DNA of 64,000 nucleotides from Blastomussa wellsi. Its lineage: Eukaryota; Cnidaria; Anthozoa; Scleractinia; Plerogyridae. The DNA is taken from contig OX393562.1 in the NCBI GenBank assembly GCA_947652115.1, positions 14,163,328-14,227,327 on the forward strand, given 5' to 3'. The translations under genes and the position numbers were made by a program. Each line of letters starts with the position of its first letter. Position 1 is the first letter of the stretch. A model generated the notes under the pieces. That model was not told where the DNA came from. It saw nothing but the letters and a program-made list of their open reading frames with translations, and did not search any database. Positions 15,001 through 40,000 of the stretch are shown piece after piece.

Positions 15001-18000
15001 GGGCCAGGCACCAGGCAAATTGACCGGCTGTGAACGAGACTTAGCCATGACTTTGCCAGCTGTTTTCGTCTTCTCTACTTACTTTGAATTCTTTTATAAG
15101 AAAAGCTAAAAATGCCTGGCTGAAAAGCCCTACTGACCTCCTGTAGAAATATGTAATGAAACCCCTGCGGTGAGGGGTGACTGCATTGTGTTGTTGGGCA
15201 AGACACTTTACTGTCACAGTGTCTCTCTCCACCCAGGTGTATAAATGAACACCAACCATGGGAATTTAATGCTGGAGGGTAGCCCTGCAATGAACTACAG
15301 TAGAATCCCATCCAGGGTAAGTAGAAATACATCCTATTTAGCAGTATATTGGACCATGAATTGTAGCCTAACACGGACTTTATTTTACTAGATACAATGT
15401 ACAATGGAAATGTACGTGTATATATATATATATATCGTACCTTTCCGTGTTCCAGTGGTGCTATACCTTGTCACATCAGTAACATCTTTTGACAACAGTG
15501 CAACATTTATCTTATACCTTCTGTCATACGATAGAGGAAGACCAAGTTTGGGAGATGTCCTTTCTTTGCTGTCTTTCTCTATTAGGACGAAAACAGTTAC
15601 TGGGTGTGAGAAAACTAAACCGCAAACACCAACATTAATAATTATTATTAGTTTGTGGTATTGAGGTTTGTTCGCATGTCCTGAACTTTGTTGTGATTGG
15701 TCACCACATAATCAACATTCCTGAAATATTTCAGGTGTTCACAGTTTTACGGCAAAGACTGTAACTAACCACACTTCTTCGCAGTGCATTTGGAGCTCAG
15801 AGCCATTCCTGCATTTAGCTGCTCATACACTTGTGCATATAATTATAAGACATACTCTGCAGACTGGGGACAACTGCCTCCAAAATCCTGCCCCACCCCT
15901 CCCCAAACAGCTGCTTGACACAAAGGATGCCAACATTCCCAAACTGAAGATTATAATGCAAGCTTATATCACAGGCAGATCACCCACCCTTTGTTTATGT
16001 GATGTACAAATGTAAATGCCGTTTGGAACATGAGACTTGAGACAAGGTAAATTGAAATTTTTGTTCCACTAGCAGAGGTATTAAAGACATCTTTTGCCTC
16101 AATGCTTTTTAACAAGTTTCGAAAAAATGTTAATTGAGTAATGTGTTATGTTTTTTGCCATCTGACCTGTATAGAGAGAAAGGGAGACAAGGCAGGCAAG
16201 TTACTGTGGGCGACCGCTATGAGGCACAACTTCCAGCTTGAATTGTTGCAAAATTGAAAAATTATCTTCCTTTATTCACTGCCCATGCAAAAATAAATGT
16301 GTGATCACATGTGTGATCACACGTGTGATTCGAAGTGTGATCACACGTGTGATTTTTTATAAAATGTGTGAATCACACTTTAAATCACACTTTTCACCCT
16401 TCAAATCACACTTCTGTGAAGTGTGAAAAGTGGTGTGATAAAGTGTGAAAAAGAAGTGTGAAAAAGTGTGATTCACACGTGTGATTTTTTATAACGTGTG
16501 ATTGCAAGTGTGATCACACTTTATTAAGTGTGATCTAATGTATGATCACACTTACAAAAGTGTGATACTAGACATAATTGCATCCCATTTTATCAATTAA
16601 CGTTAAATCACACTTCTTTAGACCACACAATCAGTGAAGTTGATTGATTTAGCCTACAGCCTAAAATGCTACAATATGTATCATGCACCTATAGTAAAAT
16701 GATAAGTACTAACATAAATGGGGGAAACTTTTAATTTTGATTATGCTCATAATATATATATACTGGTGAAATTACCTCGATTATAATATAATTATTCTGA
16801 TACATTTTGCAGAATTGTCCATAAAAATGTTGCTAAAAACTATACATGTAATTTCCTTCGTAAATTGGCATAACAGTTTCTATTTGCAATCTGTAATAAA
16901 CACCATATATTAACTGAATAACATAAGGCAAACCTGGCAAAAATACAGTGACAAACATTAAATTTGTTCTAAACAGAGTGGAACAGTTTAATACAAATGT
17001 TAAATTGGGGGGGGGGGGGGTCACCATCCAAACCTAAATCAAAAATCTAGATCAAGTCATAAACAAAATACCATAATTATATAAACTGGAAGACGAAGCT
17101 ACAAATTCCACAATAATCATATTATTTTGGTGAATGATTCTCAATCATTAATATATTATATGTATCGATCATTTTGCATTACAAATTTGTTAAATATATT
17201 CATTTCATTATTGTTTAATGTGTAGATTCATTTTCTTTAGGCTTATATTTGCCGTGACGATATCCTCGGCACTTGTTATTGATGGATACTATCACAGCTG
17301 CCCACGCTTGCTCCATTGTTTCCCCTTCTTGTAGTGGGAGATGTTTAAATATGAAACCTGGAATATTCATAGGAAAGAAAGCAAAATTGATTAACAAAAA
17401 ATAATTTGACAAAGGATAGGTAACCTGCAAGATGTATAATTTAGTGGTTGTACCTAACCCAACAATGACTTAAGAGCCTTTGAAGCCCAAATGTGCCAAA
17501 TGGTACTGGACAACTTTTTAAGATATAAGGCTAGGCCATCTTTCTCGATCTATATATAACACTAATTAATTATAATATATATTAATTTCCATGTAAAGGA
17601 TACTACAAATCAGTAAAATCAACTCACTTTTTATGGCTAAAACTTTGTTGTTGTCCAAGGCTTTTTCCGTCTTGGACTGTTTGGACCCCGACACTGTGGA
17701 AGTTTTAAGAACATCAAATGAAAATAGCTTTTCCAGCAGTGTCAGGGCCATCTTGTTCCTGTTGCTGCAGTTTGCAATTCCCAACAAGGTTTCTTTGTCT
17801 GAGGTGATCCCATAAATGGGGTCACCAACAAACAAATTTCCTTGCAGGTTGCTGCAAATCATCTGTGCAGCTGAACCTTAATAAGAAAAAAGAGCAAACT
17901 AAAGTTATTAGAATAAAAAAGGTTGGCAATATGTTATTAGTCAGCTGCAGTCTACTGGGATGATCACTCTGGTAACTGAAAAAGCTGTTGTTGTTTTTCA

Positions 18001-21000
18001 GCCAAACAGACTGCTGCAAAAACTCTGCATGGTCATAATTAATGTTCAAATTTATTAAGTTACATTAATCCTTCAGACCAATAAAGGTGGGCTACAAGTC
18101 ACTTAGTAAAATTAGGCCCCAGTTGCAGGCAACAGATAAATTGGACAGCCAACTAATGCTCAACATGGCCGGAATACAACCACAGTACTACAATGGAAGC
18201 CACGGAAACAGTTGGACATGATAAAAAATTTTTTTTCATCAAATTCATAGCTGGCTCAGCCTTGTACTTAGATATATGAATAATTTTTATCCTAAGGATA
18301 TAAAGACATTGTAAATACAATGTCTTTAACAGCTGCATTAAAATACCTTTTTTGGTTGCTGTACCACTTGTGTTACTCTTTTGGGATGTGCTTAATGGTC
18401 CACTGCAAATCTTATGAGTGGAAGATGAAGCAATATCAACTGCATTGGTAGCAGGTGGTGTTTGTGCATGCCAAATTGCTTCAGGGGTGGGAGAGTTCAC
18501 AGCTGGTTCTAATTCTGTTAGTGGCAGAGACCTCTCACTGTTGCTTTTGTTCTCCTAAATAACAAATAGGTTATAATTATATAAATGTTAGTTGCAATAT
18601 ATAACTATAAAATCCTGGTTGCAATTAGCTCCGAGTTTATACAACTTTGTGAGGGGTTTGGGCCAGAGCTTACTAAAAGAGGGCTGTCACATCCTTATAG
18701 GTGGGCATTGGGGGCTTGTAATTGCAGGTATATATAAAAATGTTTGGAATGAGCTAATAATAAAAGCATCGGCACTTAACCAACTCTGCAGTGCTCTGTA
18801 TGATCAGTTGTTTAATACATCATAATGATGGTGTTGTACCTATTTATACTTCAGTAAGTCATTGGACAGTTAGTATAACACTGGTATTTATATATTATTT
18901 AAAGTCTTACAGTGTGCAGTGAAAGTGTTTATATTAAGGGAACAAGGGGAAGGGGGAGCTTTAAATTATTATTTGTAAGGTACATTTTTGGCCCTGTAAG
19001 TGTAGAGACTTATAACCTGAGAATTACAGAATATAGTTACAATAATCCAGCAGCTAAATTTTGTGATTTACATAATTTTAAAATTTAGGAAAAGGTACTT
19101 TACTTGCCTTGTACAGTCGCTTAACAACTTGGTTGTTTCCAAGCATTTTCATAAAATGGTGGACTGCTGTTGTTAGGCGGTCAACTTTTTTTGCCATTTC
19201 CTATAAAAAAAAAGAAAAGGGTTTCAAACTTGGATATACTCAAACAATTGTGTCGGTGTTGAAAAAAGGCCTATTTTGAAAATTTATTTAAAGTATTTAA
19301 CTCGCATTGAAGCATAATCATGACCTGATGGTTCAACATGTCATGATCATACTGAAAGAAAAATTACACACAGTAATCTTTGCCCAGGAAAATTGCCTTA
19401 AGATTAACCTGCAGTTCTTTCTTGCAGTGGCAGCTGGCATTTTCAGGGGGGCTGTTTATATCACAACTGCAGGTACTTCCTTCATCTGCTGCACTGTCTA
19501 TATGCTCTTCAACTAATTGGAAAAAAAACAACTATTATATACAATAAAAGCTCACTTAAAAAGCACACTCAGGCATCAACATGTTTATAATTGGCACCTT
19601 TGTTCTGCATTAATTGGCATATACATTCTAATTATGCATATAAGTGGAAACCAGGCTTTAATGATATACTTCTGGTGTTGCATGTCTGATTCATAATAAT
19701 CACTGCGTTTAACAGAGTGGTTTCAAGTAGCCTATTTACAAGATTTATTAGACAAATACTCCCTTTTTAGACAATATTATAGTCCTCTGTTTTCTTTTGT
19801 ACACTTTGAGTGTTCTTTATTATAGAGGGGGGGGGGGGGGGGGGGGTTGCCAACCCTTTTATGGCCCACCCTGTCTCTGATAAAATTTACACTTCTTAAA
19901 AAAAGACTTGATAATTGAAGACTTTTGTGTTTCAAGCTGCTGCGCGATCAACATTGTGACGAGGTATATTTGGTTTCCTGAAGTGATTGCTTCTTAAGAA
20001 GAGTTAACTTACTGTAATAGTTAATATAACAGCTCAAATACTTCTATGTTCAACATTTTACCGTTATTTATGTCAGCATACTTTTCCTCTGGTCTTGATT
20101 TATCTGACAGGGGTGTTTTTTTTCTTTGAACAATCACAATGCCATGGTCTGCGTTATAACATAATTTATACAACTAATTAAGATAAGTAAGCACAATTAG
20201 TCAAATGTATAACCAAGCCTTTTATTTATAGCCCACCCTGCTGTCTTTGCTAAAAATGTACACTTCTTGAAGTTATTGTTCTTTGAAGAAAATCCATTTC
20301 AAAGAACAGTACTTAACGATAAGCATGACAGGACGCACACGATTTTTACTGTAAGTATCTTTTCACGCAGAGTGCGGTTAAAAAAGGCGAGATAAGATAT
20401 CAAGAAGGTTTTTGAAAGTCATCGTCACCTAGAATAGAGATCTGGAAATACTAATAATAATACACTACAAATACTGCCTGGGTCTACTCGAATTTCGGTC
20501 TGTATTCCAGTTCGTGATCATTGCAACTGATACTGGCGACGAGAAAGGGTTTATTTCAAACGGTTTTGCTGAAGACAAAAATTAAAAATATTGCGATTGC
20601 TTATCCTGGTACATATTCTTCAAGATCTGGCAATAGGTCCCGCCCACACACAAAATGTACCAGGATAAGATATCACAAATCAAATTCTACTACAGTCGGT
20701 GTTGCACAAGAAAGCTAAAAACATTTGGTGGCAACAATTGAGCAATAAATATTGCGATCGCTTATCCTGGTACACATGCTTCAAGATTTGGCAGGATATC
20801 CCGAAGGTATGTTTTTTTTTTGTGCAAAAATTGCGGCACAGGCGGCTGAGACGGTGGTTGTTATTTACGTACGTGATCAATAATTTGCGATACGTTTTAA
20901 GTTATTTAAAGAATGCTTCGAAAATCACTCTAAATTCAACTTATAGCAATTGATTTAAAAAAACAGTAGCTTACATCACATTGTCCGCTCTTTTGCTATT

Positions 21001-24000
21001 TTGATGTCTGACTTTGTGGTAGCTTGTTAATTCTTAAGCCATTGAGAGTACTAAGGATGATTCAGACGATTTATACCGTGGTTTGCTTCCCACTCTTTTC
21101 TCTTTAGCGGAACCATAATTCCTTGGCACATTGCGTGAAATTCGTTTTTCGTTTCTCGATTTCTTTGCCATAAAAACGCCCACCTCGTTTACAAAGCGTA
21201 AAGAATGGACCGACTGACTGATCTTGGGACTCGATAAACCGGAACACGGCCCGAATAAAAAGTTATTGTTGGCTTGTGAAGGTAACGTTTGATGATATAA
21301 TCGGTTGGATCATATATCTGCCCTGCTCTGCTATCCTTTAATTTTAATGGCATGTCTACGACAGTCAAAAAAGATTATGACACCTGGAAGGAACATAAGG
21401 AGAAGAAACCCGCAGCGCTTTGGCTAAAGAATGTATGGAATCCTAGAAAATTTTTTTTTGTTAAAGGTACTTACAGTGCGCGCTCTATGCGTCCGCTCAT
21501 GTTAGCTTTTGTGTTAAAATCCATCTCAAGTCATCAGCATTTCAGGTTTCTTTTTGTTTCTTGAAGTGATTGCTTGCAAGAGTTATGTGACTGCAATAAT
21601 AATATACAACAACAGCTAAATCATTTTGAACATTTTACCGTTAATTGCGTCAGGAACCTTCTTCTCTGGTTTATCTGCAACAGGTGTTTCTTTCCTTTCA
21701 ACCGTCACAACTGCATGGTCTGCAATATAATCAAATAAATCACCAAACTTTATACGGTGTATTTAACCAATTATATAATGTGCGCCCATGTATAATACAC
21801 ACCTCAATTTTAGACCACATTTTGGGGAAAAAAGAAAAAAGAAACTCCTCATGACAAAGGTTAAATTGTATAACATTATTTCTTTTAATGAACTCGGCAA
21901 ACTAACCGAAATATTAAAAGGTTACAACATCTTTCACTTACATGTACTTAACTGTCAACAAAGTTTACGAGCATCCAAATATGGCCCACCTTGTCTTTGA
22001 TCGAAATTTACACTTCTTGAACTTATGTTTGAAGAACATCCATTTCAAAAAAGATAACTTAATCATCAGAAGCTTAAAAAATGAGCCAACTAAAGGGATC
22101 AGCATTAAAAGGTCTTTTTTTGTTTGTTGAAGTGATTTCTTGTAAGAGTTGCCAGTAATTGACTACAATAATAATATAGCAACAGCTAAATGCTTAACCA
22201 TGAAACTTTTACCTTCATTTGTGCCAGGATACTTTTTCTCTGGTTTTGATTGGACAGTCACACTTACACAGTCTGCATTATAACAACATAATTTATACAA
22301 CTAGATAAGTAGCAAATAATCCAAACCTTTAAATAATTAATCTTAAGCAATCATATTCTTATTCATATTAATCAACATTCATTTTTATTTCTCACTTTAT
22401 TACCATTTTCCAGGGTTTTTTTCTTTGTAGGAGCATTTGTCTTTGATCCCAACTTCTTTAACATGACTTGTGCCATGCTCTCAATTTCATCCTTTGAAAG
22501 CTGCAATAATAAGAAAAATGCTGTACTGCTCAAAGGAAGCTCAAGCTTGTGATGTGATTTAATTCCTTTTCGTGTTACCTATTCATGGCAAGCAATTCAA
22601 AATCTAAAACCTTATCGGTGTACCCAACTATTAAAGTTGTATTTATGTAGCATTTATTACAATTCAGAAATAAATAAAATTTAAATAGCGGTGGCATCCA
22701 CCAAGTGGCTTTTTGTCTTCAATTCTACATTGAGTTTTATTTTATATTGGCTTGGAAACTAAAACGATGAGGTTGTTCAGACTTCTTGATCTCATTATTG
22801 TTCCCTCCTGCCAATGGCCTTGTAATCTCAGGCCCCGAGTGAGTGTAAGGAAAAGAGATCCTGGGAGCATGTTGGTTAACATAAGTTCTAAACTGAATAC
22901 CCATGCAACTGGCTTTAAAAGTGTAACATGTGAAATTATATTCCTCTTACTATGGCATTGCCATCATTGTCAGAAACGTCATATGCAGTTGTCGCACTCT
23001 GCAAAGAAAGATTACAATTTAAAAACAAGAAATGGTTGGTTTAATCCATACATGATAGTATGGGAGTTAAAGCCAGAAAAAAAAAGTTGAAAAAGGAAAG
23101 AAATCAAAATCTTAATCCACAAAACTTAATTGTTTAGAAGCTCTAAAAAACATTCAGTGAACTATTTGTTCACAGTAATTTTGAATGATAATGTTTTGAA
23201 CATTTTGAAATATTACTTGTACCGTTTGAATATATTTTATGTGCACGCTTTGTATTATAAATTTTAATTTTTTAAACTAAATTGTTCCTATCCGGACGGG
23301 ATTGCCCGTTTGGGTCCTGCATAAAAGATTATGTGCAGCGGACTAATTTGGCCATATCATAATTCCTTCATTGACCAAGCTTGTTCGGTTAAGATGGCTG
23401 GATATTGGCCTCCTTTTTTGCGTTTTTATGGACCTTAACTTTGTCTCAGTCCATAAAAGCGCAAGAAAAGAAAAGAACTTGGCCAATATCCAGCCATCTT
23501 GATCTCACGCTTGGTCAATAATGCACTTATATTGTCAAAACAGAATGATGTCACACTGATTTCCCTTACTGTAACTGCAGTCTGTTCATCTTCATCTTTG
23601 TCACTCTCAAATGATTTTTTTGAACCAGCCTACAAATAATGAGGAAAAGAAAAAAATATTAACACAATCACTGTTTATCAATTGTCTAATAAAATCACAA
23701 GAGAAATTAAATTAACCTGTTGACACCTGGAGTTTAAAAAGAAAACAAAAGAAAACAAAAAACGCAAAGTTTTGACATTTTGAGGTTTTTTATGAGCTAT
23801 GATAGACCTTAAATTTAACTGGCATTTGTGGGGTAATGTGGGCGAAGCTTTAATACAACAATCTTGCTTTTTTTGAGATGATAAACCATGCCACTACATT
23901 ACTGCTTAATATGTCTTGCCATAATTGGTTATTTTTGGCTTCTTTTTGTCCTTTTCCTTAATTAGCGCTTTGCTGCACTGCTTCCATGTAGCTTAAGAGA

Positions 24001-27000
24001 TCCTAAGAAAGGGTAAATGAAACAGGAAATTCTGATGATGGACTAGAAAGGGGATGGAATGGGTAATTTTTGCTCTGGGTTTTTCACTACAATGTAAAAG
24101 CATTTAGTGATGAAATCACAACTGGGCGTGAGAAATGCCTAGTAGGCTTTTGACAGGTAGTTTTCACGATAGCTTCGTAACTGAAAATTATCAAAATGGG
24201 TTACTGATTTGATTGATTCCTGTGATATACTTACCAGTGATTTCAGTGTTTGTTCCAAGTTCACAGAGTAAAGAAGTTTCTTTTTAGAAACATCCCTTTT
24301 CTGCGATGGTGCCTTTGAAGAACTTGTCCTTTTCTTTGCTTTCTGTATGTATACATAAATAAATTTTGAATAACATTATCATAAAAACTTATTTCAAGTC
24401 CCAGCAATGTAAAAAGGCACAAGATAATGTATAAATATTACCTTTGGTGATAAGCATCGTGGTTTTCTTTTAGCTAATTCTTTTTTATTATGTTTCTTTC
24501 TTTTTCTTGTAGTCTCCACTTCATCTGCTGCTGGTGACATTCTGTTTGCTTTTCTGCCAACTTCTTCTGTATCTGCTTTCTTTTTCTTTACTGGGGTCTC
24601 AAATTCATCTGCAATTATGGTTTCAAACATTTCTTTTTAAAAATAGCGACAACACCTGGTTATACTTCTTACCAGTACATGTATATCATTTCCATCCTTC
24701 TGACTTTGTGAGGAGGAATGTTGTTGGCCTAGTTATAATTATCGAAAGTCATTGACATACACAAAATATTGACCACAAAATATAATTTATCTATACATGC
24801 ACGGTAACAAAAAATCTTACACTTCAATTTTCAGAGCTGAACAACAAGTTTCAAACAAGTTTAAATAGCCTTGAGATTATATCTACACTATTGCTCTAGT
24901 AAATCTATTCAACAGCCTATACTACTTTTTGCTCTTAAGGTCATTGTGTGATCTATAAAGCAAAAGGCAGGAGAACATCTATATTCATAAATACTAGTTA
25001 ATTCATTACCGGTATCTGATTCTTCACTCTCGATCGGAATGAAACCATCGGAATCACTTTCCATAGCCTCATAGTGAGCAGCTACTCTCCCTAAGAATAT
25101 TACAAAAATGAAAACAAGTTTAAAGTTTATGATAGGTTAAATGACCATTAGCCAGCAAGGGTTAATCTTGGTTTGTTAGCAAAAACCAAAAGTCACTTGA
25201 ATAAAGATGGAATGTGATTTGCCGGTACCCATTTTAATTCATGGGCAGAGAAAAGTTCTTGTACTATACACTGAATATGAATATTCCATTCAGTCGCATA
25301 TATTTTTATAGGTTCAATCAAGGTGTAAGAAATAGAAAATTTTATCAATGTAAATACTTACTGTGGAACGCTTTTAAATCAAGGAAAGACCCAGTGCAAA
25401 TCCTCGAGAGCATGTAAACAATCTGGAACCGTAAAATTTGCAGAGCTGAATGTTGAGGCAAAACTAAAGGAGTTATTTCTTGGTAAGGCTTATTGGAATT
25501 CATAACAGCAAGATGGTTATCACAGAGTTTATGTGGAGTGTATGTATGATGTATGAAGAAGTTCAACCGTGTCTTGCCTCAATTCTGTAGCAGACCAAAT
25601 TGATCGCATTGTACGACCAGGTCAAAATGAAAAATAATTGATGACCGGCTATTATTTTTTTGTTGGCTATATACATATCAAATTCTACCATTAATTAATG
25701 AGATATCTGGATGTTTCTATTATATTTCAACCAGTAAATTAAATTGTGGAATACAGAGTAGACAGTGATTCCAGGGTTCAGACTTTTTGTTATTATTTTA
25801 GCACTTAAAGACCAATGTTTTAATCATACCAATTCAGTTTTTTTAATTAACAGATGAAAAGTTTTGCAAACTTTTGTCACAGTCACCAAGAACTGCCTCA
25901 GGAAAAGAATGCCTACAAGACATTTATGATGGTAGTCTGTACAAAGATTACATTTGTCAGGAAGATTCCTTCCTTCGTTGCCCTTGGAACATTTACTCTT
26001 AACACCGATGGAGTCAATGTATTTTCTTCGTCAAAGAAAGGGCATCTTTGGCCAGTTTACTTAGCCATCAATGAGCTTCCCATTGAGCAAAGGTACATGT
26101 GTAAGGAACCCTTGGTACCCTGCATTTATACAATACATATTTAACACTTCTGAGAGCAAAGTCACTTAACTTTTTCTGCTGAAATTAATTTCTCTTTTTT
26201 TACAAAAGGTACAGCAAGAATTACCTTATCCCAGCATTACTTTATTGTGACAGAGGGACCCCCAACATGCAATCATTTCTGAAACCTCTTGTGGACAGCA
26301 TCAACAGATTATATACAGAAGGTTTGTCATGTTGAAGTGTTTCAGGTTCTCTTGCGAGACTTTGCCTGGTTTTGTTTAAAGTGTTATTGCTGAGCTTTGT
26401 ACAAGTAGGATCAAAGCTTTGTACCTGTACTATGAGCAGGTACACTGGTAGCAGTTGTCCTGTAAAGTAACTTGATGCTAAAATCTTTATTTTTATTGCT
26501 TTTAAGATACATGTCAACATAAATGTAATGCTATAATTAAGGTTGTGATTGCAGGTGTGAAGGTGACTACAGCATTTGGAGAAAGAAGAGTTCGTGCAAT
26601 GCTAATGGTTTGCTCATTGGACTTACCAGCAAAGGCAGCTCTCTTAAACATGAAACAGTACAATGGTGAAAATGGCTGTAGTTTTTGTGATGCCCCAGGG
26701 AGAACTTGTCCAGGGTCTCACTTGCACAGATTTTGGCCCTTTGACCAAGAGGGAGCTCTACGCACAGACAATACAATGAGGACAAATGCACTGAATGCTG
26801 CTTTACAAGGAAAAGCAGTAAGATCACACATGCTATTCATTTGAATGATTGTAGCAGTTACCAGTACCTGTATTGCTAATGAATGCAAATTGTAATATTA
26901 CCTATTTAAAACAACTTTGGAAACATTTGCCAATGCAAATTATGTACCTATTTAAAACAACTTTGGAAACATTTTCTTAGGGCCATTTCATGTACATTGT

Positions 27001-28029
27001 ATTTGTGAGGACAAAATTAATATTTTCCCAAAGTTTTTATGGCTATTATTACAGCTTTTCCTAGTTAACCAAAATCGCAATTGTTTTTTAACCTCATGAT
27101 GTCTCCGAAACTTTCGCTTTGATGGAATGGAGCTTCCCATCCTTTCCTGAGACACTGACGGAATTTCTAACACACATACCAACATCACGGGACATGTTTC
27201 TCAGGTTGATGCTAGAACTTATTTTTACACACAACATAACGAACGTCTTACAATGATTGACTCCAGCAATCTTGAAAAAAAAATTGAGACAGAAGGAGTT
27301 AAAAATTAAGCAATATTTTTATACTAAAATAATTATCTTTCAGGTTGCAGGAGTAAAAGGTGCCTCGCCTTTGGCTGCTTTGAAAGGTTTTGATCTTGTA
27401 AAAGGAGTTGCCATTGATTATATGCACAATGTTTTGATTGGTGTTGTAAAAGCTCTACAGGATAAATGGTTTCATGGTGACAAACACTCTCCCTATTACA
27501 TTGGCAGGAAGGTACGTATGTATCACTGAGTAATGATTTAGATTAAGTACATTCCCAGGGTACAAAGGAATTCAGGTCCGATAGCCCAGGACTAGTGGAT
27601 TTTGTGGTCGGGCTAGTGGAATGTATACTTTACTTTCCAAGCGGGCAAGGAAAAGTTTTTGGGGAAATTTTTCTTTGAAATTAATTAGCAGGAGCACTGT
27701 AAAACATGGAAAATTTTCGGGCTAGTAGAAATGACCTCCAGGCTAGTAGATCTTGGCTGCAGCTTGGCCAAAGGGCAGGCTGGAAAATTTAACTTCTTTG
27801 TACCCTGATTCCTCTTAGTTTCACTATTCACTTTAAATACACTTACTCCAGCGATACATTCGTACTAGTTAATCATAAAATTATATTATTATGCATTTAT
27901 CAAGCTAATTACAATGGTTGTGATTAACAGGCACTTCTAGTTGATAAGGTACCTCTACATTATTGTCAGTGAGGCAGTCAGTCAGTTAATTAGTTAGTTA
28001 GTTTGTTCGTTGTTAGTTACTTCTATTGA

Positions 28030-28081
<52 letters not shown>

Positions 28082-31000
28082 TTAGTTATAAATATTCATT
28101 TTTCTCGCTAATGGTTATGATTAACAGGCACGTCTGGTAGACCAGGGACTTCTGGGCTTTCGGGTCCCAGATGTCATAACAAGAAAGCCAAGAACTGTCA
28201 CTGAAAGTGGCAATTGGAAAGGTATTTACAAATTTAGCAGGCACTTAATCATCAGAGAAACTCTAATTCATTTGAAGGGCTTTCAATAAGCACCGACGGC
28301 CAACGAAAATTGTCGCCTACTTCGTCCAGAAAAGTCAGCACTTTTCACCCGAAAATTTAAGTAATATAAGAGAAATGCAATTAAAACTTGTTGATACAGT
28401 CGGTTACTCTACTCAAACCAGCTGCCTACTTCAAATTTTATTGAAAGCCCTGCATTTGAAAGGAGTAAATTATTATTTTACAGGGGAACTGTGCTGAATA
28501 AGTACACTTACAGTACCAGTAATATTATTCTTCTCAGACCTTTACCCCTAACTCCAGTACAGGAAAAAAGCAACTGTGTGAACATACCCTGCACATGCAG
28601 GTGGCAAGTATCTTTCAAACCCTTACCCATATCCTGTGACTCTTTTTGTCTATACAGCTACTGAACGAAAGTCATGGCTGCTGCACTATTCCCTTCCTGT
28701 TCTTCATGGCATTTTAAAGCCAATTTATTGCACCCATTTTGCTCTTTTGGCAACAGCAATTGCTATTTTGACAGCAGAGGTTATAACAACAGATGATCTA
28801 GAGAAAGCCAAACTGCTTCTGGTGGATTTTTGTAAATTATACCCTGAACTTTATGGTAAGCTGATGATGTATATCATAGATGTGTAAGCTGTTATTCCTG
28901 GTAGCCTAGATTACCAGCCTCAAGACTTTTGGGTAGGAAGTGGAACAAGAAGCAGCCTCATAAGAGTGCCAGAAATGTAGCCCATATTCGGCCTAGAAAA
29001 GTTGACCAATATTATTGATAAAAGTATATACCATTTATTAAATTGATACTGATGAAATACCAGGATCTTCATCCCGTGCAGTGAATATCTTTCACATGTT
29101 AAATAATTTACATGTAGCTTAACCTGCATCTGGTCTATGCTTTAATATTACAGGTGAGACTGCACAAAACCATAATGTTCATCTGCTACGACATCTCACT
29201 CACATTGCGGGAATTTTGGGTCCATTATGGGCCTTTTCTTGCTTTGGGTTTGAAAGCATGAATGCTGTGTTGAAGAACCTGATTCATGGAACAGGGAAAG
29301 TGATTTCACAGGTGAACACTATTTTAAACAATTTTGAAATCCTCAAGGAATTATGCTAAATTTGTTTAAGCAGCGGAGAAGGCAGTTCAGTGTATAATGC
29401 ACACAGGTTCACATGGAATACCACAGACTTCCTATTTAACAATCAGCCATGTAACATTGTTTTAGTTAGACATTCATATTTTTTTCTAGAAAAATGTCAT
29501 AAACTTGTGCATTTGTATTCCAGACAACCTGTCCCAGAAAAGCAGACTGAGGTTTTGGTACACCCGTGACATACATGTGGGCACTAATATTGAGAACACA
29601 ATTCCATTATCCATGTTGACCATGAAGAGACGAAACAGCCTAAAAGCAGTGAAATTTTTTTCTGTTTAAGGTTGTTCTTACGCAACAACATTAGTTGCAG
29701 TAATAATTTATCAGTATTAAAATTTACCCATAGTAAATGAATGTACATTTTTATTTGTGTTCATGCAAGTTGCTGATATATACATGTGCAGGTATCTTTG
29801 GCACTTGGAATGTTAGACAGGCTTCCAAAGCTCTGTGCAGAATTAACCAGCAGAGACGATGTCACAAATGAAGTAAAGGCTATGCTGAAAAGATTAACTG
29901 CCACAGAGAGAAGGTAACAGTATTTTTTATACCTTATTACATGAAATTTTAGAGACACGTTAATTTAGCGATTTTGCAAAATCGTTATTTAGTGACACTT
30001 ATTTAGCGATTTTTTTGTAAATTCTTTAACAGAAGCATCTAATTTTTGGAACATTAGTCACTTAATTTTAGTGATGTTTAGAAAAATAGCTAAATTCACT
30101 AAAATTAAGTGTCGCTAAAATTTCATATGATAAGGTAATTATATAGTGGCATGTAGAGGGCAAAGATTAATTATATTTGCTGCAATAGCCTTCCTTGACT
30201 ATTTGATTCCATATACTCACTTCAAGTGCTAGTACATGTATTCTACTGCGAAACTTGTGAGGTTGACTTGCAGCAAGGCTACATACACTCTACATGTAGA
30301 CATGACTGAAGTCTGCAGGCATGAAATCTTAGTTAGCGGTAATTAGGCATGACTTTTAATCACTGGGGAAAAGGGACAATTTTATTTCTTTAAGCAGATC
30401 TTGAAAAAACATTAAATGTAAAAAAGAAAATTAAACAAAATATTAACTGGTAAAGGATTTTATGTGGTAGTTGAAATTCTGATGGGGTAAAAGGTTAAGT
30501 TGATCTAACTATTAGCTAAAATTTTGGTAAAAGATTAAAATATCCTCATGCAATCAAACATAACTGTGAATGTCCAAGTGAACAGAAATGTTTTCTGTTC
30601 TGTGGGTGATTATTATATAATATGTATATTTCAGGGTTAAAGTAACAGAAGAGTTTGAAAGTTCATCCGCTGTTGGAAAGGTGGAGGAAGCAATTCTGGA
30701 TACAGAGTTTCTAGGGCCAGCAAACTGTCTTATGAGGAAGATGGGATTTAAAACTTTAGAACCTGAAAGTAAAGTAAAACAATGCCACAGAATTCTAGTG
30801 CATCATCAAGTCTTTTATTCTTCGCGTTATCCTCGGACAAGTGTAATGAACTCATACACTGTAGAGTTTACAGCTGGGGATGGTAATGTCTGGCTTGGTG
30901 AAGTTGAAATATATATTATTGTTAATGAGGTTCAAGTAGCCATTGTTAGACCATTTAAAATAACCGATAAAAGTGTTCTTCAAGTCGATAATGATCTAGA

Positions 31001-34000
31001 GGATCACCCAGTTTTAAAAAAGTATGTACAGCCAAGGAGTGATCAACATAAACTTGCCACACATATCAAGCTGATAGATTTAAGCAACAAGTACCTGGGC
31101 CTAACAGCGGTACCTGTGACGGACTTGATTAAGAAATGTGTGTATGGAGAAAAACAGCTCGAGGGATATGCTACTGTTTCTTGTTTTCCCAATTTAGTGG
31201 AACATGATTAATAATTTAGTGTATCAACTACAATAAATTATTTGCATTATCTGGTACATGACCAAGGCTTCATTACAAAGTCTCTGCAAGCCATGCCAAG
31301 CTGGGATGCTAGTCCATAACAAATGACCCCCCCCCCCCCAGCATTCAATGACCCAACCACCCAGACTCCTGTTGATGAAATCAAAGCAGCAGTAATCAAA
31401 ATGCATCTCAATGTAGCTATGTAGTATGAGAAATTATATTACTCAGTTAGTGAAATAAATAATGTATTTGAAATAAACCTAAAAAAGAAAACTGTGTTAA
31501 AGATTCTCTGTGAAGTGGGCAAATTCTTACAGACAGAAAACAGGAGCTAGAGAACATAAAGTACCGTTAAATCCAGCACTCATTACTCAGCCCCTACTGT
31601 ACAGTAGTGTTAAGTTTTCATTTGTATTACTTTTGTTAGTATTGTAATATCTTAAAAGATATTTAAAATCTGCAATTTCTGTAAAGTATCACTTATCAAT
31701 GTAATTATGATGAAGAAAGTGTGATCCAGTTATCAAAGCCTGCAAAATCACACTTTGTTTATCACGCTTCTTGTCACACTTGTCATGTGTGAAACACAAG
31801 CGAGAAGTGTGATTATAAGTGTGAAAAAGTGTGATTTTAGGTATCACACTTTTATCACACATTCAAAGTGTGATCACACATGTGATCACACATTTATTTT
31901 TGCATGGGTGGCCTCTGATCAACAACATACATGCATTTTGCCATGTTGTGGTCAAGCTTGGGCTTCATTCATCAAATTTCCTCCAAGAAAAGCAAAGCTT
32001 AAGTCCTCCATATAGGTTTCAAAAGATGATCTGTAGCAGCGTTCATGACTAAAGGAATTTTAAACAATCATGTGGCTTATTCAAAATCGGCTTGTCAATG
32101 CCCCAAGGTCATGATTGCATTTCAAATCCCCAACCCTACCCAGGATTGGCGGATTTTAAACAAGCTAATTTGGTTTTATCAACTGGGTTGATAATGTCAA
32201 TTGGCCACCGTAAAGAGATTCAAGAGCTGACGTTTCGAGCGTTAGCCCTTCGTCGGAGCGACTCTGGTTGCCGACTCTGCTACAGATCATATTTTGAAAC
32301 CTACATGGGGGACTTAAGCTTCACTTTTCTTGGAGTAAATTCGACGAATGAAGCCTAAGCTTGGCCATGATATGGTGAAACATGTTGTTGATCAGAGGCT
32401 GGTGTAAACAGGGTGATAATTTTTGAAATGTTGTGATAATTCAAGCTTGAATTAGTACCTCATAGTGGCCATCCGCATGTCGCTGCGACTTGCCTGCCTT
32501 GTCTCGGGAGAGTTGAAAAAACTGACCCCCGGTCCGCGGACTACCCACTGACCCCCTAGTTCGTGGACTATCCTTAAAAATCAACAATTTACCGGTACTT
32601 CTGTGGGTTAAAGAAATACAAGAAACTTACCTACAACTGCAGACAAAAGTGTTGGGAAGCTTTGTACTTTTCTCCTCTCCTCCCCTCCCCTATTCAATGT
32701 TGAGCCCACTAGCAACCTTTTTCGTACAAGATGGTAAAGTGAGATTCCAATCATTGATAGGGGGCGGAAAGGAGGGGGGGGGGGGCTAAAACAGTGTAGT
32801 ATTAGTGTTTTCTAAGTTGGATTCAAAAATACTGTAATTGGGTCTAATGTTTAATATTTTATACTTTTGTCTGTGGTTGTAGCTACTGACGCGATCATTC
32901 AAAACACTAGCCATCTCTCCGCCATCTTGCTTTTTTTGGTTAAGAATGGGGCGAGACTGAAAGAAGACTGGGTCAAAAAGCAAGATGGCAGGTGGAAATC
33001 AAGATGGCGGGTGTTATGAATGACCGCGTCGGCAGCTAGGTAGGTTCCTTGTGAATCAATCAACTTTATTTGCCACTCAAATCCTTTTACATCAGTTTCT
33101 TGTATTTCATTAACCCACAGAAGTAAATTTGGTTGATTGTTAATGCTGTCGCATTAGTTTTTCATACAGCGGTATTTTGCTAAGTAGTTACCAGTTTCCG
33201 CTCGGACGAGTGTCACATGTACTTCTTGTATGTTTCACTGTTCGAGACAAGGTTGTACCTCGGCGGATGTTTGTGAATTTCACGGCGTTAAACATTGTAT
33301 TTCAAGGTTCGTCAACGGTCTTTTACTCGTCCTATTCACGGAAAGGTTCAACGGAAACGGAGGGCGTTGTAAACAGAGATTTACGGAGCGATTAAAGGTA
33401 CAAACAGTTCTGTTTAGCCGAGTGTTTTGATCTTCAAGAACAGTCGCAGCCGCTGCTGACACTCGAAAAAGGATTCTCACTGGAAAGGGTAGGGAATTTG
33501 AAGTTCAAAGATATAAGGATAATCGAAGAAATGCCTTGTCGAATTTAACTAAACAAATGAACAAAATTCGACCATTGTTATCCAGTTTGAAGAATGTTGA
33601 ACTAGTGAAAGTAGAATCGCAGGAGTTAGATGAGCTATTTTCAAAGCTACATGAAGCACACGAGCGTTATGCAAATGCTTTGACAGATGAACATGAGATT
33701 AAAGAGGCTCATGAATGGTTTGGTATTCATGATAAAGATGCGTTTATCTTAAAGCAAAGTATTATTGAATTCTCAAATCAAGCAAAGAAGCAACACGATG
33801 ATGAAATTAGCTCAGTAAGATCACGATTGTCTGGTCGTTCTAAGCATTCTGCCACTTCAACATGTTCTTCAAAGACAAAGTTAATGGAAGCTAAGGCTAA
33901 GGCTGCCGCCTTGGAAGTTAAGGCAGCATTTTTAAAAGAGAAGCAAGCACTTAGAATGGCAACTGAAGAGCTTGAGCTTAGACAGGAAATTGCACAAGCT

Positions 34001-37000
34001 AAAGTAGAAGAAAAGGTATATGAACAGTGTGAAAGGGAACAAAACATTGATGATATGAATAATTATCTAGAAAAGGTGAAGGTACAAAGCACCTCAACAC
34101 CCATCTCTTCTCAAGACATTTCCAGTAGTCAAGTTACATTGCCTGTTGCATCTGCAACTAATGTTATCTCTGGGAAACAGCAAGGGTCAGCTGTTGTAAA
34201 TTCAGTTAGTACGGTTCCCATGGTTACACCCTCGATTACACCTACCTCAAGTAGTCCTGCATTCACAACTTCTGGCATGAATCCTAGTGCTCAACCCTTT
34301 ATTCCTGGAAATCTGTTTAAAAATAGAGAAGAGCCTGAAGCACCTGTTGTACCTAAGCATGTGTTCAACCCACAAGAAAGTCCACACTTCTCTAGAAGAG
34401 ATTCAAGTTCTGTCATCAATGAAAGTACATATCAAGAATTTCTAAGTGTTCAAAGGAAACAAACTGAACTGTCACAGATGATTGTCACACAGCAAGCTAG
34501 GAGTGAGTTACCATCTCACAAGCCGCCCACATTCTACGGAGATGTCATGCAATACCCAGCTTTTGTAACAGCTTTTGAGACTCTCATAGAATCAAAGGTT
34601 GAGAATTCTATGGAGCGGTTGTATTATCTGGATCAGTATACCAATGGCAAAGCAAAGGAACTGATCAAGGGCTGTTTGCAAATGAAAGGTAAAGATTCTT
34701 ACCAAGAAGCTAGACGACTGCTGAAGAAGCATTTTGGAGACCCTTACAAAATTCCAAGTGCGTACATCTCCAAAATATCGAATTGGCCTTTGGTGAAACC
34801 AAATGATGGTACGGGATTACAGGAGTTTTCTATTGTTCTTGAGCAGACGAGAAATGCTATGTCAGGCATGGCTTACATGAATGACTTGAACACTGCTAAT
34901 GTTCTTCGTCAATTGTGGGAGAAGTTGCCAAGACACCTTCGCAGTAAGTGGACTGAAAGAGTTAGTAAAATCAGAAATGCCTCAGAGCGGATGGCCAGTT
35001 TCAATGATTTCTGTCAGTTTGTGTCTGAACAAGCCGATTTGGCTACAGATCCAGTCTACTCTGAAGAAACGGTGGCGAGAACAAAGGATGGAGATGTAAA
35101 ACACCGCAGACCAGGAGATCGAAGATTCAGGAGAGACAAAGGTTCAAACTTTGGAACAAATGTGTCAAAACCAGATGGAAGCACAAGAAACCCTCGTTCC
35201 CGCAGCTGTGCCTTGTGTTGCAAAGCACATGATTTAGATGAATGTTCTGAGTTTCTCAAGAAGCCATTGACAGAACGAAGGAACTTTGTTAAAGAGAAAG
35301 GTTTATGTTTTGGATGTTACAGCTCTGAGCACATCGCAAAGCTCTACAAGAGTAGAAAATCCTGTAAGACATGTAGTAAGAAACATCCAACATCCCTTCA
35401 TGATCACAACTGGAAGCAAGAAGGATCGAGAACCGAAGTTGAGATTGGTGAAAGTAAAGGGACGGAGGTTAATGAGAGGAAGGATGATGGCCAAGTAATT
35501 AATGCTTGTAACACCATTTGTAATGTAACAGAGGCTGGTGATGTTCCTATCAGCATGGGCATAGTTCCTATTTGGTTGTACCATAAGGACAATCCTGAAC
35601 ACAAAATCAGAGTTTATGCCCTCCTCGATAATGCGAGTGGTGGAACCTTTATTAAAGAAGAGTCGTTGGAAAGGCTTGGCATCAAAGGTACTGAGACCAA
35701 GTTATTGTTAACCACCATGCATGGCACGCAAGAGATTGAAACAAAGGTAGTCGAAGGATTGGTCGTAGCTCACTTCAGTGAAAATGATGTACATCTAGAC
35801 ATACCCAGAGCCTATGTTAGGCAACACATTCCAGCAGACCGAGATGAAATTCCAAGACCGGAAACAGCTAGTAAATGGCCACATTTGCAGAGAGTCGCCA
35901 AGGACATACCACCATACATGGAAGATGTAGAGATCGGGCTTCTGATTGGACTTAACTGTCCTAGTGCAGTACGGCCAAGAGATGTTATTCATGGTAAACA
36001 GAACGACCCGTATGCTGTTCGTTCACTATTAGGATGGCACATTAATGGTCCAATTGAAAGAGAAAGCAACAGTGTAGTGCAATGTCACAGAATTCAGATC
36101 CACAAACCTAGTGCCATTGATGAAGCTAGTGGGTACATTGTAGCTGAGAGAAGCGTTAAGGAACAGTTAACGCCTCAAGTTGTTGAACGAATGTTCGAAC
36201 TGGACTTTTCTGAAAGGGAAAATGGAACGGCTATGTCTCAAGAAGATCGTGAATTTCTAAGGAAGGCTAAGGAAGGAATTCATCACCGTGAAGACTTACA
36301 CTATGAGATGCCACTCCCATTCAGAGAACAAGATGTCCAGCTTCCGAATAATCGCCCTCAAGCAGCTCAGCGACTCATTGGTTTAAAGAAGAAACTTGAA
36401 GCAAATGACACATACCGTGCTGATTATGTGGATTTTATGACTGGCATAATAGACAAGGGTTATGCTCGTAAGATTGACTCTGAGAACTTAGCAACGCAGA
36501 AAGGAAAAGTGTGGTACCTACCTCATCACGGAATATACCACCCAAGAAAGCCAAGCAGCATTCGCGTGGTGTTTGACTGTTCAGCTCGTTACCAGGGTGA
36601 ATCATTGAATGATCATCTTCTTCAAGGTCCTGATTTGACTAGCAAACTAACTGGTGTGTTAACAAGATTCAGGGAAGAAAGAGTGGCCTTCATGGCAGAT
36701 ATCGAGAAGATGTTCTACCAAGTAAAGGTAAAGAAAGCGGATCAGGATTTCCTTCGTTTCCTTTGGTGGCCCAATGGAGACTTAACAAAGGAAATGGAAG
36801 AATACTGTATGACAGTTCACCTATTTGGAGGTGGATCTTCACCTGGCTGTTCAAACTTTGCACTCAAACGTACTGCAGAGGATGGTGAAAACGAGTTTGG
36901 CGTGAAAGCAGCAGAAACGGTTAAGAAGAACTTCTATGTTGACGATTTGTTGAAATCATTGCCGACAGAAGAAGATGCAATACAGGTTATCCATGATGTT

Positions 37001-40000
37001 AAGAACATGTGTGCAAAGGGAGGATTCAACCTCACCAAGTTTGTCAGCAATAGTCGAAGAGTGATTATGTCAGTATTGCCTGAAGATAGAGCGAAAGAAA
37101 TTAAAGGTCTGGACTTAGGTCAAGACAAGCTTCCCATAGAAAGAGCGTTGGGCGTACACTGGTGCATCGAATCGGATACTTTCAAATTTCGGATAGAGAT
37201 GAAAGATCAGCCTTGCACGCGAAGAGGAATTTTGTCAACGATCAGTTCAGTCTATGATCCTTTGGGTTTCATAGCACCTGTCATCCTTGTCGGAAAGCAG
37301 ATATTGCAAGAAATTTGTCATGGCAGCAGTTGGGATGAGCCCGTCGAAGGTGATATCCTTTCCCGTTGGGAGAAATGGAGAAGTCAACTGCCCCTCTTAG
37401 AAACACTCAGCATTTCAAGGTGTTTTAAGCCACCAGACTTTGGCAAGATTGTTTCAGCACAATTGCACAATATGTCGGATGCCTCAGGAACTGGATACGG
37501 GCAATGCTCATATCTACGTTTAGTCGATGACAACAATCATGTACATTGCTCTTTTGTTATGGGCAAAGCACGCGTTGCACCAAGGAAAACAGTAAGCATT
37601 CCAAGGCTAGAACTCGCAGCTGCTGCTGTTTCAGTAAGAGTAGCCGACGTACTGAAGAACGAGTTGGATTACGAGAGAATAGAAGAGTTTTATTGGACGG
37701 ACAGTAAAGTGGTTCTCGGGTTCATCAACAACGAGTCCCGACGATTTCATGTTTATGTAGCGAATAGAGTACAGCTGATAAGAGATTACACTTCGCCGTC
37801 GCAGTGGCGATATGTAGAGTCTGCATCCAACCCAGCAGATGAAGGTTCACGAGGTCTGAATGCAAGATATTTCCTTCAGAACTCACGATGGATCAAAGGC
37901 CCAGATTTCTTATGGAAAAGTGAAAACCATTGGCCGGAGCAAGGTTCATACGAGAAGGAGCTTGACCCTAACAGTCCAGAAGTGAAGAAGATCACTGTAA
38001 ACGCTACTGTTGCGGAAGAGAAGAAGGACATGCTGAGCAGGTTAGAAAGATTCTCCAGTTGGCAAAGGCTGAAAACGGCAATTGCTTTATGTATGAAGTA
38101 CAAACAGCAGCTGAAGACAAGTGTAACCAAGGCAATAAGCAGATCTCCAGTGAAAGAAACCTCTCAGAGTACACCCAACAGTGGTCGGAGTAGTGATGGT
38201 ACAAGTTGCACTGTTCTCGCATCGGTTATGGTGAACGATTTGGAGCAAGCAGAAATTGAAGTCATCAAGCTAGTGCAAGCTGACGCTTTTGAGAAGGAAA
38301 TTAAAGCATTAAAGGAGCTCCACGCTGACGAAAAGAATGAAAGTAGACAGAGTGATAAACAGAAGAAGGTTGCTATGAAGAAAACCAGCAGTCTACATAC
38401 ACTGGATCCATTCTTGGATTGCAACGGAGTTCTGAGAGTTGGAGGACGGATCAAGAAAGCTAACTTGTCAGAAAGTCTTAAAAACCCTGTCATCTTGCCA
38501 AAAGCCGCCCACGTTACCAAGCTGATTATACGTCATGTTCATGAGAAGGCGCAACACAGTGGGCGAGGTGTCACTTTAAATGAGTTACGCACAAACGGTT
38601 ACTGGATTATAAACGGAAATGCAGCTGTCCAGCATTTCATCTCAAAATGTGTCACATGTCGCTATCTTCGTGGAGGTGCAGGAGAGCAGAAAATGGCTAA
38701 CCTTCCAAAGTCACGCGTTGAGCCTGCCCCACCGTTTACCTATAGTGCTGTTGACTATTTTGGACCGTGGTATGTGAAGGAAGGTAGGAAAGAAGTGAAA
38801 AGGTATGGAGCCTTGTTGACATGTATGGCTAGTCGTTCCATACACATCGAAGTAGCACACTCCTTAGAGACGGATTCATTCCTGCAAGCGTTACGGAGGT
38901 TCATCAGTCGAAGAGGGCCCATAAGAGAATTGCGCAGTGACCAAGGAACTAACTTTGTAGGAGCTCACAATGAATTGAAGAAGGCGCTCCAAGAAATGGA
39001 TGATGATCACATTAAGGCAGAGCTACTAAAGAATGACATCGACTGGGTTAGGAATCCTGCCACAGCAAGCAATTTTGGAGGAGTATGGGAAAGACAAATC
39101 AGATCTGTGAGAAACATTATGGCAGCGCTAATGAGAGAACACGGTCACAGTTTGGATGATGAAGCGTTGAGAACCCTAATGTGCGAAACAGTAGACCCCT
39201 AACGGTGGACACCTTGAGTGATCCTCTTTCTCCACTACCGCTTACACCAAACACAATTCTCACTGGCAAAACAAAGCTCATTTTGCCGCCTCCAGGAAAA
39301 TTTCAAAGGGAAGATGTCTATTGTAAGCAGCGCTGGAGACGTGTACAACACATAGCAAATGAATTTTGGACAAGATGGAGCAAGGAGTACTTGCAGAGCC
39401 TACAAGTGAGGAACAAGTGGATACGCCAACGCAGAAACTTCACTGAAGGTGATGTTGTATTGCTGAAAGACAGCAACACTAGCAGAAACCAGTGGTCATT
39501 GGCCAAAGTACTCATTACGTGTCCGGATGACCAAGGTCAGGTCAGATCAGTGACTGTCCGAACTTCAAAGGGATCCCTACTGGATAGACCTATTAACAAA
39601 CTTGTCCTGTTGTTAGAGTCAACTGAAGAGAGACCGGGAATCCCCGACGAGGAGCCACGTTGTGAGAACTCAATGTGATTTGAGGAACTAATGTTAAAAC
39701 AGACACTGAACGATGTTAAGATAAGGATAGGATAAGTGATTGTTTTGTTTAAAATGACAGACATTTTAAGAGGAGCCATGTTAATGCTGTCGCATTAGTT
39801 TTTCATACAGCGGTATTTTGCTAAGTAGTTACCAGTTTCCGCTCGGACAAGTGTCACATGTACTTCTTGTATGTTTCACTGTTCGAGACAAGGTTGTACC
39901 TCGGCGGATGTTTGTGAATTTCACGGCGTTAAACATTGTATTTCAAGGTTCGTCAACGGTCTTTTACTCGTCCTATTCACGGCAGCTCTGACGTATGGCT

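Follow-up and report, generated by a model that had tools for sequence, protein, structure and literature searches.

A tnp2-type DNA transposon of Blastomussa wellsi with a BEN-domain gene as its second component

Why does a gene for a BEN-domain protein lie beside a gene for a tnp2-type transposase, in divergent orientation, between one pair of inverted ends? This arrangement occurs in a 64,000-nt stretch of the Blastomussa wellsi assembly (GCA_947652115.1, contig OX393562.1, 14,163,328-14,227,327, forward strand), which we call the window; positions below are counted within it. Further copies and a second family indicated that the BEN gene truly belongs to the element. We consider it probable that the whole is a two-gene cut-and-paste transposon of the TRC type whose BEN protein most likely binds the subterminal repeats, as TNPA does in plant En/Spm.

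The limits of the element are real: positions 16282-31908 are one inserted unit of 15,627 bp (15.6 kb). It lies within an older foldback element, in its left arm; the 18-bp outer ends of that element (GAGACAAGGCAGGCAAGT) are exact inverted matches of each other. When the flanks of the unit were joined with one TG, they aligned through the join with the right foldback arm, taken in reverse complement, across 238 columns; the sister arm therefore lacks the 15,627-bp stretch. A sequence-only reading of this locus had described perfect 41-bp inverted ends, a 2-bp TG duplication and, between them, two divergent spliced genes. The two arms proved to be 100% complementary, and the gene pair was recovered as a 14-exon minus-strand BEN model and a plus-strand tnp2 gene. 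TG was present on both sides, and the alignment score favored one TG (215) over two (208) and hardly over none (214; best of 200 shuffles, 26). That reading had placed the limits correctly and had overlooked the subterminal repeats and the surrounding foldback element.

The BEN gene of the window encodes 519 amino acids (aa) without an internal stop, across 12 GT-AG introns and one GC-AG intron. This model was built by hand, and all gene models here were drawn from genomic sequence. Its C-terminal domain matched Pfam PF10523 (E 1.3e-6; 28.9 bits against a gathering cut-off of 23.2), and the nearest solved chain was BANP (PDB 7yug, E 1.7e-5). We found no match in a protein database for the full protein (8000 candidates scored) or for the BEN region alone (91 candidates). 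By eye, BEN exons 7-9 look like tandem duplicates of one exon, with shared GTAAAA donors and similar peptides; a DNA repeat joins 20096-20159 and 21667-21730 (77%).

The transposase gene matched Transposase_21 (PF02992; E 2.6e-12, 46.9 bits against a cut-off of 28.6). In CMC/CMCT transposases the defining residues are D, D and E, and a C(2)C and an H(3-4)H motif separate the second D from the E (PMC12730594). We observed the same order in the window (D, D, E; C(2)C and H(3)H): D102, D190, C209, C212, H418, H422 and E442, numbered on the joined frame, were invariant across 15 aligned sequences including that of the window, the D, D and E roles being our own assignment. The gene aligned with tnp2 proteins of animals, and the best of 188 matches among 8000 scored candidates was a Porites lutea protein (37%). 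The transposase core of a homologue showed a RAG1- and Transib-like fold over residues 1-557. Structure prediction of the last tnp2 exon by itself was poor (predicted local distance difference test, pLDDT, 39.5), and that model was dropped.

The element had earlier been called intact-ended with tnp2 motifs. Its ends are intact and the catalytic and zinc-motif residues are present; the gene itself is broken twice. A profile from 49 homologues did not find the conserved tnp2 N-terminus within the window. It was located in two other copies of the element (C9 and C1, described below): C9 holds ~2.16 kb at the deletion point of the window, and C1 has tnp2 exon 1 upstream of the same point. The exon-1 part of the missing segment (1,443 bp) was 99.93% alike in C1 and C9. 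A 5-bp deletion in exon 2 disrupts the reading frame immediately upstream of the codon for the first catalytic Asp, a frame change seen against many homologues. By these comparisons, with most of exon 1 lost and exon 2 out of frame, the window tnp2 is dead.

We searched the genome (367.8 Mb, 124 contigs) for exact ends, so copy numbers are lower bounds. An exact match to the terminal 28 bp was present at five places, namely the two window ends and three further loci (C1, C9 and C12). Parts of both genes were present at two of these three loci. In C9, a copy of 24,412 bp, the two ends are preserved at 40 of 41 terminal inverted repeat positions, with GG on either side. It carries the whole tnp2 half, BEN exons 1-4 and extra inserted DNA, and its tnp2 can be read without interruption for 994 aa, starting at the first Met in exon 1. 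The C1 copy retains the left end, the first five of ten tnp2 exons and BEN exons 9-14, of which exon 10 is altered; its right end was not seen in the 30 kb fetched. Substitution rates between the window and these two copies were similar and very low in BEN exons (0.23-0.26%), tnp2 exons (0.10-0.22%) and noncoding DNA (0.17-0.36%). The two halves are therefore of similar age and travelled together.

With the BEN protein as query, the genome gave 28 matches (E <= 0.01), and near-identical exons lay only in the window, C1 and C9 elements. The next-best matches beyond these elements reached 36-38% identity and covered the BEN domain only. The BEN gene was accordingly neither absent from every other end-bearing copy nor a single-copy host orthologue, the two outcomes that would have refuted the earlier proposal that it belongs to the transposon. 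Scans of viral contigs with BEN, tnp2 and the end gave no match.

A second family shows the same pairing. Searches of the genome gave 27 BEN and 43 tnp2 matches, counted exon by exon; split genes like those of the window are not among them. From our own reading of the two match lists, a single pair was closer than 10 kb: the two on C22, separated by ~7 kb. The second-closest pair was ~71 kb apart. If the matches were placed at random, ~0.06 pairs closer than 10 kb would be expected (27 × 43 × 20 kb / 368 Mb). The C22 element spans 19,370 bp between matching ends (CCCCGGCACCAGG / GATGCCGGGG), with CA on either side, and its genes are again divergent: a tnp2 frame of 924 aa and a BEN frame. The BEN domain scored 36.0 bits, above the gathering score of 23.2. 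The tnp2 frame reached 26.3 bits in a whole-frame hmmscan, just below the cut-off of 28.6, and 29.7 bits in the genome search; the C9 tnp2 as tblastn query matched it at E 2e-83. On contig C93, 7,813 bp are identical to the C22 element up to the same end, next to a different flank; provided that C93 is no chimera, this suggests that the element moved recently. Together with the C1 and C9 copies, the divergent C22 pair bore out the proposal that BEN is part of the transposon.

By eye, a number of further BEN frames also occur in multiple copies: C1 has five that resemble one another (one short), and another four alike are distributed over C12, C22, C9 and C4. They suggest further mobile or amplified BEN families that do not adjoin a tnp2 match.

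Dense palindromic repeats occupy the subterminal regions of both families. In the window element, 37 of 43 GTGTGA/TCACAC copies fell within its 568 terminal bp, with six in the 15,059 bp between the termini and 22 in the rest of the window. All 17 window occurrences of AAGTGTGAT lay in the two termini (chance mean, 0.94 per window), as did all four of the palindrome GTGTGATCACAC. The C22 family has CCATGG palindromes instead, 22 of 25 in its two termini. In plant CACTA elements, subterminal repeat regions are described as bound by second proteins that are unlike one another between elements (PMC2613891). BEN domains are reported to bind palindromes, with NAC1 recognizing ACATGT (PMC7764960) and BANP recognizing CGCG motifs (PMC10206803, PMC11472053). 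Among the DNA-contact residues named for BANP (PMC11472053, PMC10206803), Lys250, Ser271, Ser310, Lys314 and the base-reading Arg316 were kept in the window BEN domain, with residue numbers placed on the alignment by us.

A TNPA-like role of the BEN protein is a well-motivated hypothesis, based on the subterminal palindromes, the BANP-type contact residues and the analogy itself. The RAG1-like tnp2 transposase would cut at the CCC-headed inverted ends and insert the element with a 2-bp duplication; this chemistry is general knowledge of the transposase family, and the data here concern anatomy. The divergently transcribed BEN protein would bind the palindromic subterminal repeats at both ends. 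Its binding may unite the ends for the transposase, regulate expression of the element, or both, like TNPA in plant En/Spm. The window copy (BEN kept, tnp2 broken) and the C9 copy (tnp2 kept, most of BEN lost) would be movable only through proteins shared in trans.

Several observations weigh against this interpretation. C9 lacks ten BEN exons (5-14) yet keeps both ends, and at C12 the 30 kb fetched contained only ~486 bp of the left end. Indels in C1 cluster in the BEN half (83 gap bases, 21 of them at BEN exon positions, versus five in the tnp2 half). At two substitutions in 884 aligned BEN coding bases, divergence is too small for a selection test on BEN; the codon count including the altered exon 10 end gave one silent and five replacement changes. 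The window BEN domain differs from BANP at Asp312, Ser313 and Thr317. The C22 element is partly masked, and that part was unseen. The tnp2 proteins of the two families fell in separate clades (110-row FastTree) and their BEN domains did not group in the BEN tree, a pattern that fits a single ancient acquisition with later loss as well as two acquisitions. At two other tnp2 loci (of the 43 matches; 10 kb each), a home-made BEN profile found nothing convincing. The best score there, 13.3 bits, lay at a locus edge and not on the strand expected of a divergent gene. The BEN-tnp2 pairing is therefore not general.

The BEN protein of the element may bind the element and act on chromatin, as an anti-silencing factor or a repressor, instead of uniting the ends. 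We hold this to be possible without favoring it, and it is compatible with the main interpretation. BEN proteins are described as chromatin-related factors (PMC11472053), TNPA itself is reported to reactivate a methylated promoter (PMC1636069), and TET/JBP genes in fungal EnSpm-type elements have been proposed to counteract silencing (PMC12730594). The tnp2 C-terminus is moreover a BAH-like domain. The terminal clustering of the repeat motif (37 of 43 copies), however, is as expected of a role at the ends.

In Pack-CACTA-type capture, a host gene rides in an element as cargo, and the BEN gene could be such a passenger with no role in transposition. We judge this unlikely. The many BEN genes in the genome (27 matches), the two sampled tnp2 loci without BEN and the ends that C9 keeps after losing most of BEN would all agree with cargo. 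However, the distant C22 tnp2 family has the same divergent pair, and no similar donor was found elsewhere in the genome, where the best other match shares only the BEN domain, at 36-38%. The BEN gene is also a complete 14-exon model with an open frame, and no fragment. Finally, chance juxtaposition of a host BEN gene and a separate tnp2 element between unrelated inverted repeats, to which the broken transposase of the window copy might point, is refuted by the empty site, the further copies that combine this end with both genes, and the C22 family, and we give it almost no credence.

Host BEN genes had been suggested to arise from such elements. In the BEN tree the window domain joined BANP (support 91/85) on long branches flagged by the program itself, the C22 BEN domain was placed elsewhere, and no direction was given. 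Descent of host BEN genes from these elements is not supported. A broader picture is doubtful, and we offer it as speculation: animals may repeatedly have paired a RAG1-like tnp2 transposase with a BEN end-recognizer, the counterpart of RAG2 or TNPA. Repeats and BEN domains would then co-evolve by family, and some host BANP/NACC-type factors that recognize palindromes (e.g., CATG or CGCG motifs) would descend from such partners.

The features of the window element are collected in Table 1. The split foldback element comprises 16184-16281 and 31911-32505, and its part 32166-32270 recurs at 51142-51246 (93%). Adjoining the transposon, 33138-40538 is a long terminal repeat (LTR)-type retroelement with a 1923-aa open frame of BEL/Pao appearance by eye and flanking repeats 99-100% identical. 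On the minus strand, 4809-8389 holds non-LTR retrotransposon-like open frames of 887 and 341 aa, in which an endonuclease and a reverse transcriptase were recognized by eye.

Table 1. Positions of the transposon, its genes and the surrounding foldback element in the window
Feature	Position	Strand	Basis
Left terminal inverted repeat, 41 bp	16282..16322	+	Starts CCCATGC; 100% complementary to right arm
Right terminal inverted repeat, 41 bp	31868..31908	-	100% complementary to left arm
Target-site duplication TG, left	16280..16281	.	Direct reading and empty-site alignment
Target-site duplication TG, right	31909..31910	.	Direct reading and empty-site alignment
Left subterminal repeat region (GTGTGA/TCACAC, AAGTGTGAT, palindrome GTGTGATCACAC)	16282..16640	.	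25 GTGTGA/TCACAC in 359 bp
Right subterminal repeat region, motif as left	31700..31908	.	12 GTGTGA/TCACAC in 209 bp
BEN-domain gene, 14 exons, 519 aa uninterrupted	17215..25064	-	Splice model; Pfam BEN aa 431-503
BEN exons 1-7	25010-25064, 24442-24608, 24235-24342, 23570-23629, 22951-22998, 22404-22500, 22213-22272	-	Splice model
BEN exons 8-14	21639-21719, 20062-20148, 19409-19512, 19108-19200, 18347-18554, 17628-17876, 17215-17357	-	Splice model
BEN exons 13-14, C-terminal BEN domain	17215..17876	-	Pfam PF10523 E 1.3e-6; nearest solved chain BANP
tnp2 (Transposase_21) gene, broken	25361..31211	+	Pfam PF02992 E 2.6e-12; alignment to 14 homologues
tnp2 exon segments	Exon 1 end to 25482; 25854-26092; 26209-26321; 26555-26817; 27344-27511	+	As tnp2 gene
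tnp2 exon segments, continued	28128-28221; 28658-28855; 29154-29311; 29792-29913; 30635-31211	+	As tnp2 gene
Last tnp2 exon, matches BAH-like C-terminal domain	30635..31211	+	
Junction of ~2.16-kb deletion, most of tnp2 exon 1 gone	25360..25362	.	Comparison with C9 and C1 copies
Junction of 5-bp deletion, tnp2 exon 2	25991..25992	+	Comparison with C9 and C1 copies
Older foldback element, outer inverted end	16184..16201	+	Exact inverted match to 32488-32505
Other arm of foldback element, internal empty site	32264..32505	-	238-column alignment with joined flanks

The element yields a testable hypothesis on the use or origin of BEN domains, and it offers a protein, a transposase and two repeat motifs (GTGTGATCACAC and CCATGG) as test material. 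We did not find a pairing of BEN with tnp2 in the open-licence PMC papers searched, and we make no claim that it is unpublished.

By its terminal features, the element fits the animal CACTA-related TRC type and not plant CACTA proper. The RAG1-RAG2/ProtoRAG and Transib systems are alike in transposase-core fold (as seen in a homologue), in the two-protein element and in having a chromatin-reader-type domain in the complex. The window element differs in that its partner is BEN and not RAG2, its BAH-like reader is on the transposase, and it has CCC ends and a 2-bp duplication. BANP likewise has a BEN domain and several of the same DNA-contact residues, whereas it is a host transcription factor and some base-contact positions differ; only the BEN domain was compared. 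To our knowledge, the second protein of plant CACTA elements is not a BEN protein. Plant En/Spm, Tam1 and Tgmt* (TNPD/TNP2 with TNPA/TNP1) likewise combine a tnp2-type transposase, a second protein and dense subterminal repeats (PMC2613891, PMC1636069). They differ in their CACTA ends and 3-bp duplication (ATA in Tgmt*), and their second protein arises by splicing from the transcription unit of the transposase, unlike the window pair (PMC2613891, PMC1636069). The window element shares with them the subterminal repeats at both ends and has neither CACTA ends nor a 3-bp duplication. PlavakaA elements are defined as tnp2-related with a 2-bp duplication and TGT..ACA termini (PMC12730594); the window termini are CCC..GGG.

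SmTRC1 and the animal TRC elements of the CACTA superfamily likewise have Transposase_21, CCC-headed inverted ends and 2-bp direct repeats (DeMarco et al. 2006, PMC1636069). We observed CCCATGC at both window ends and CCCCGGC in C22, with duplications of TG (window), GG (C9) and CA (C22). Because each of these three sites is 2 bp, the duplication evidence is weak singly. SmTRC1 makes short non-transposase proteins that its authors likened to TNPA (PMC1636069). These extra proteins, PrA and PrB, are described as products of alternative splicing of one transcription unit and as not detectably conserved, and the passages describing them do not mention a BEN gene (PMC1636069). Against that background, the BEN gene found in two distant tnp2 families of a single genome would be a concrete candidate for the part of TNPA in animals.

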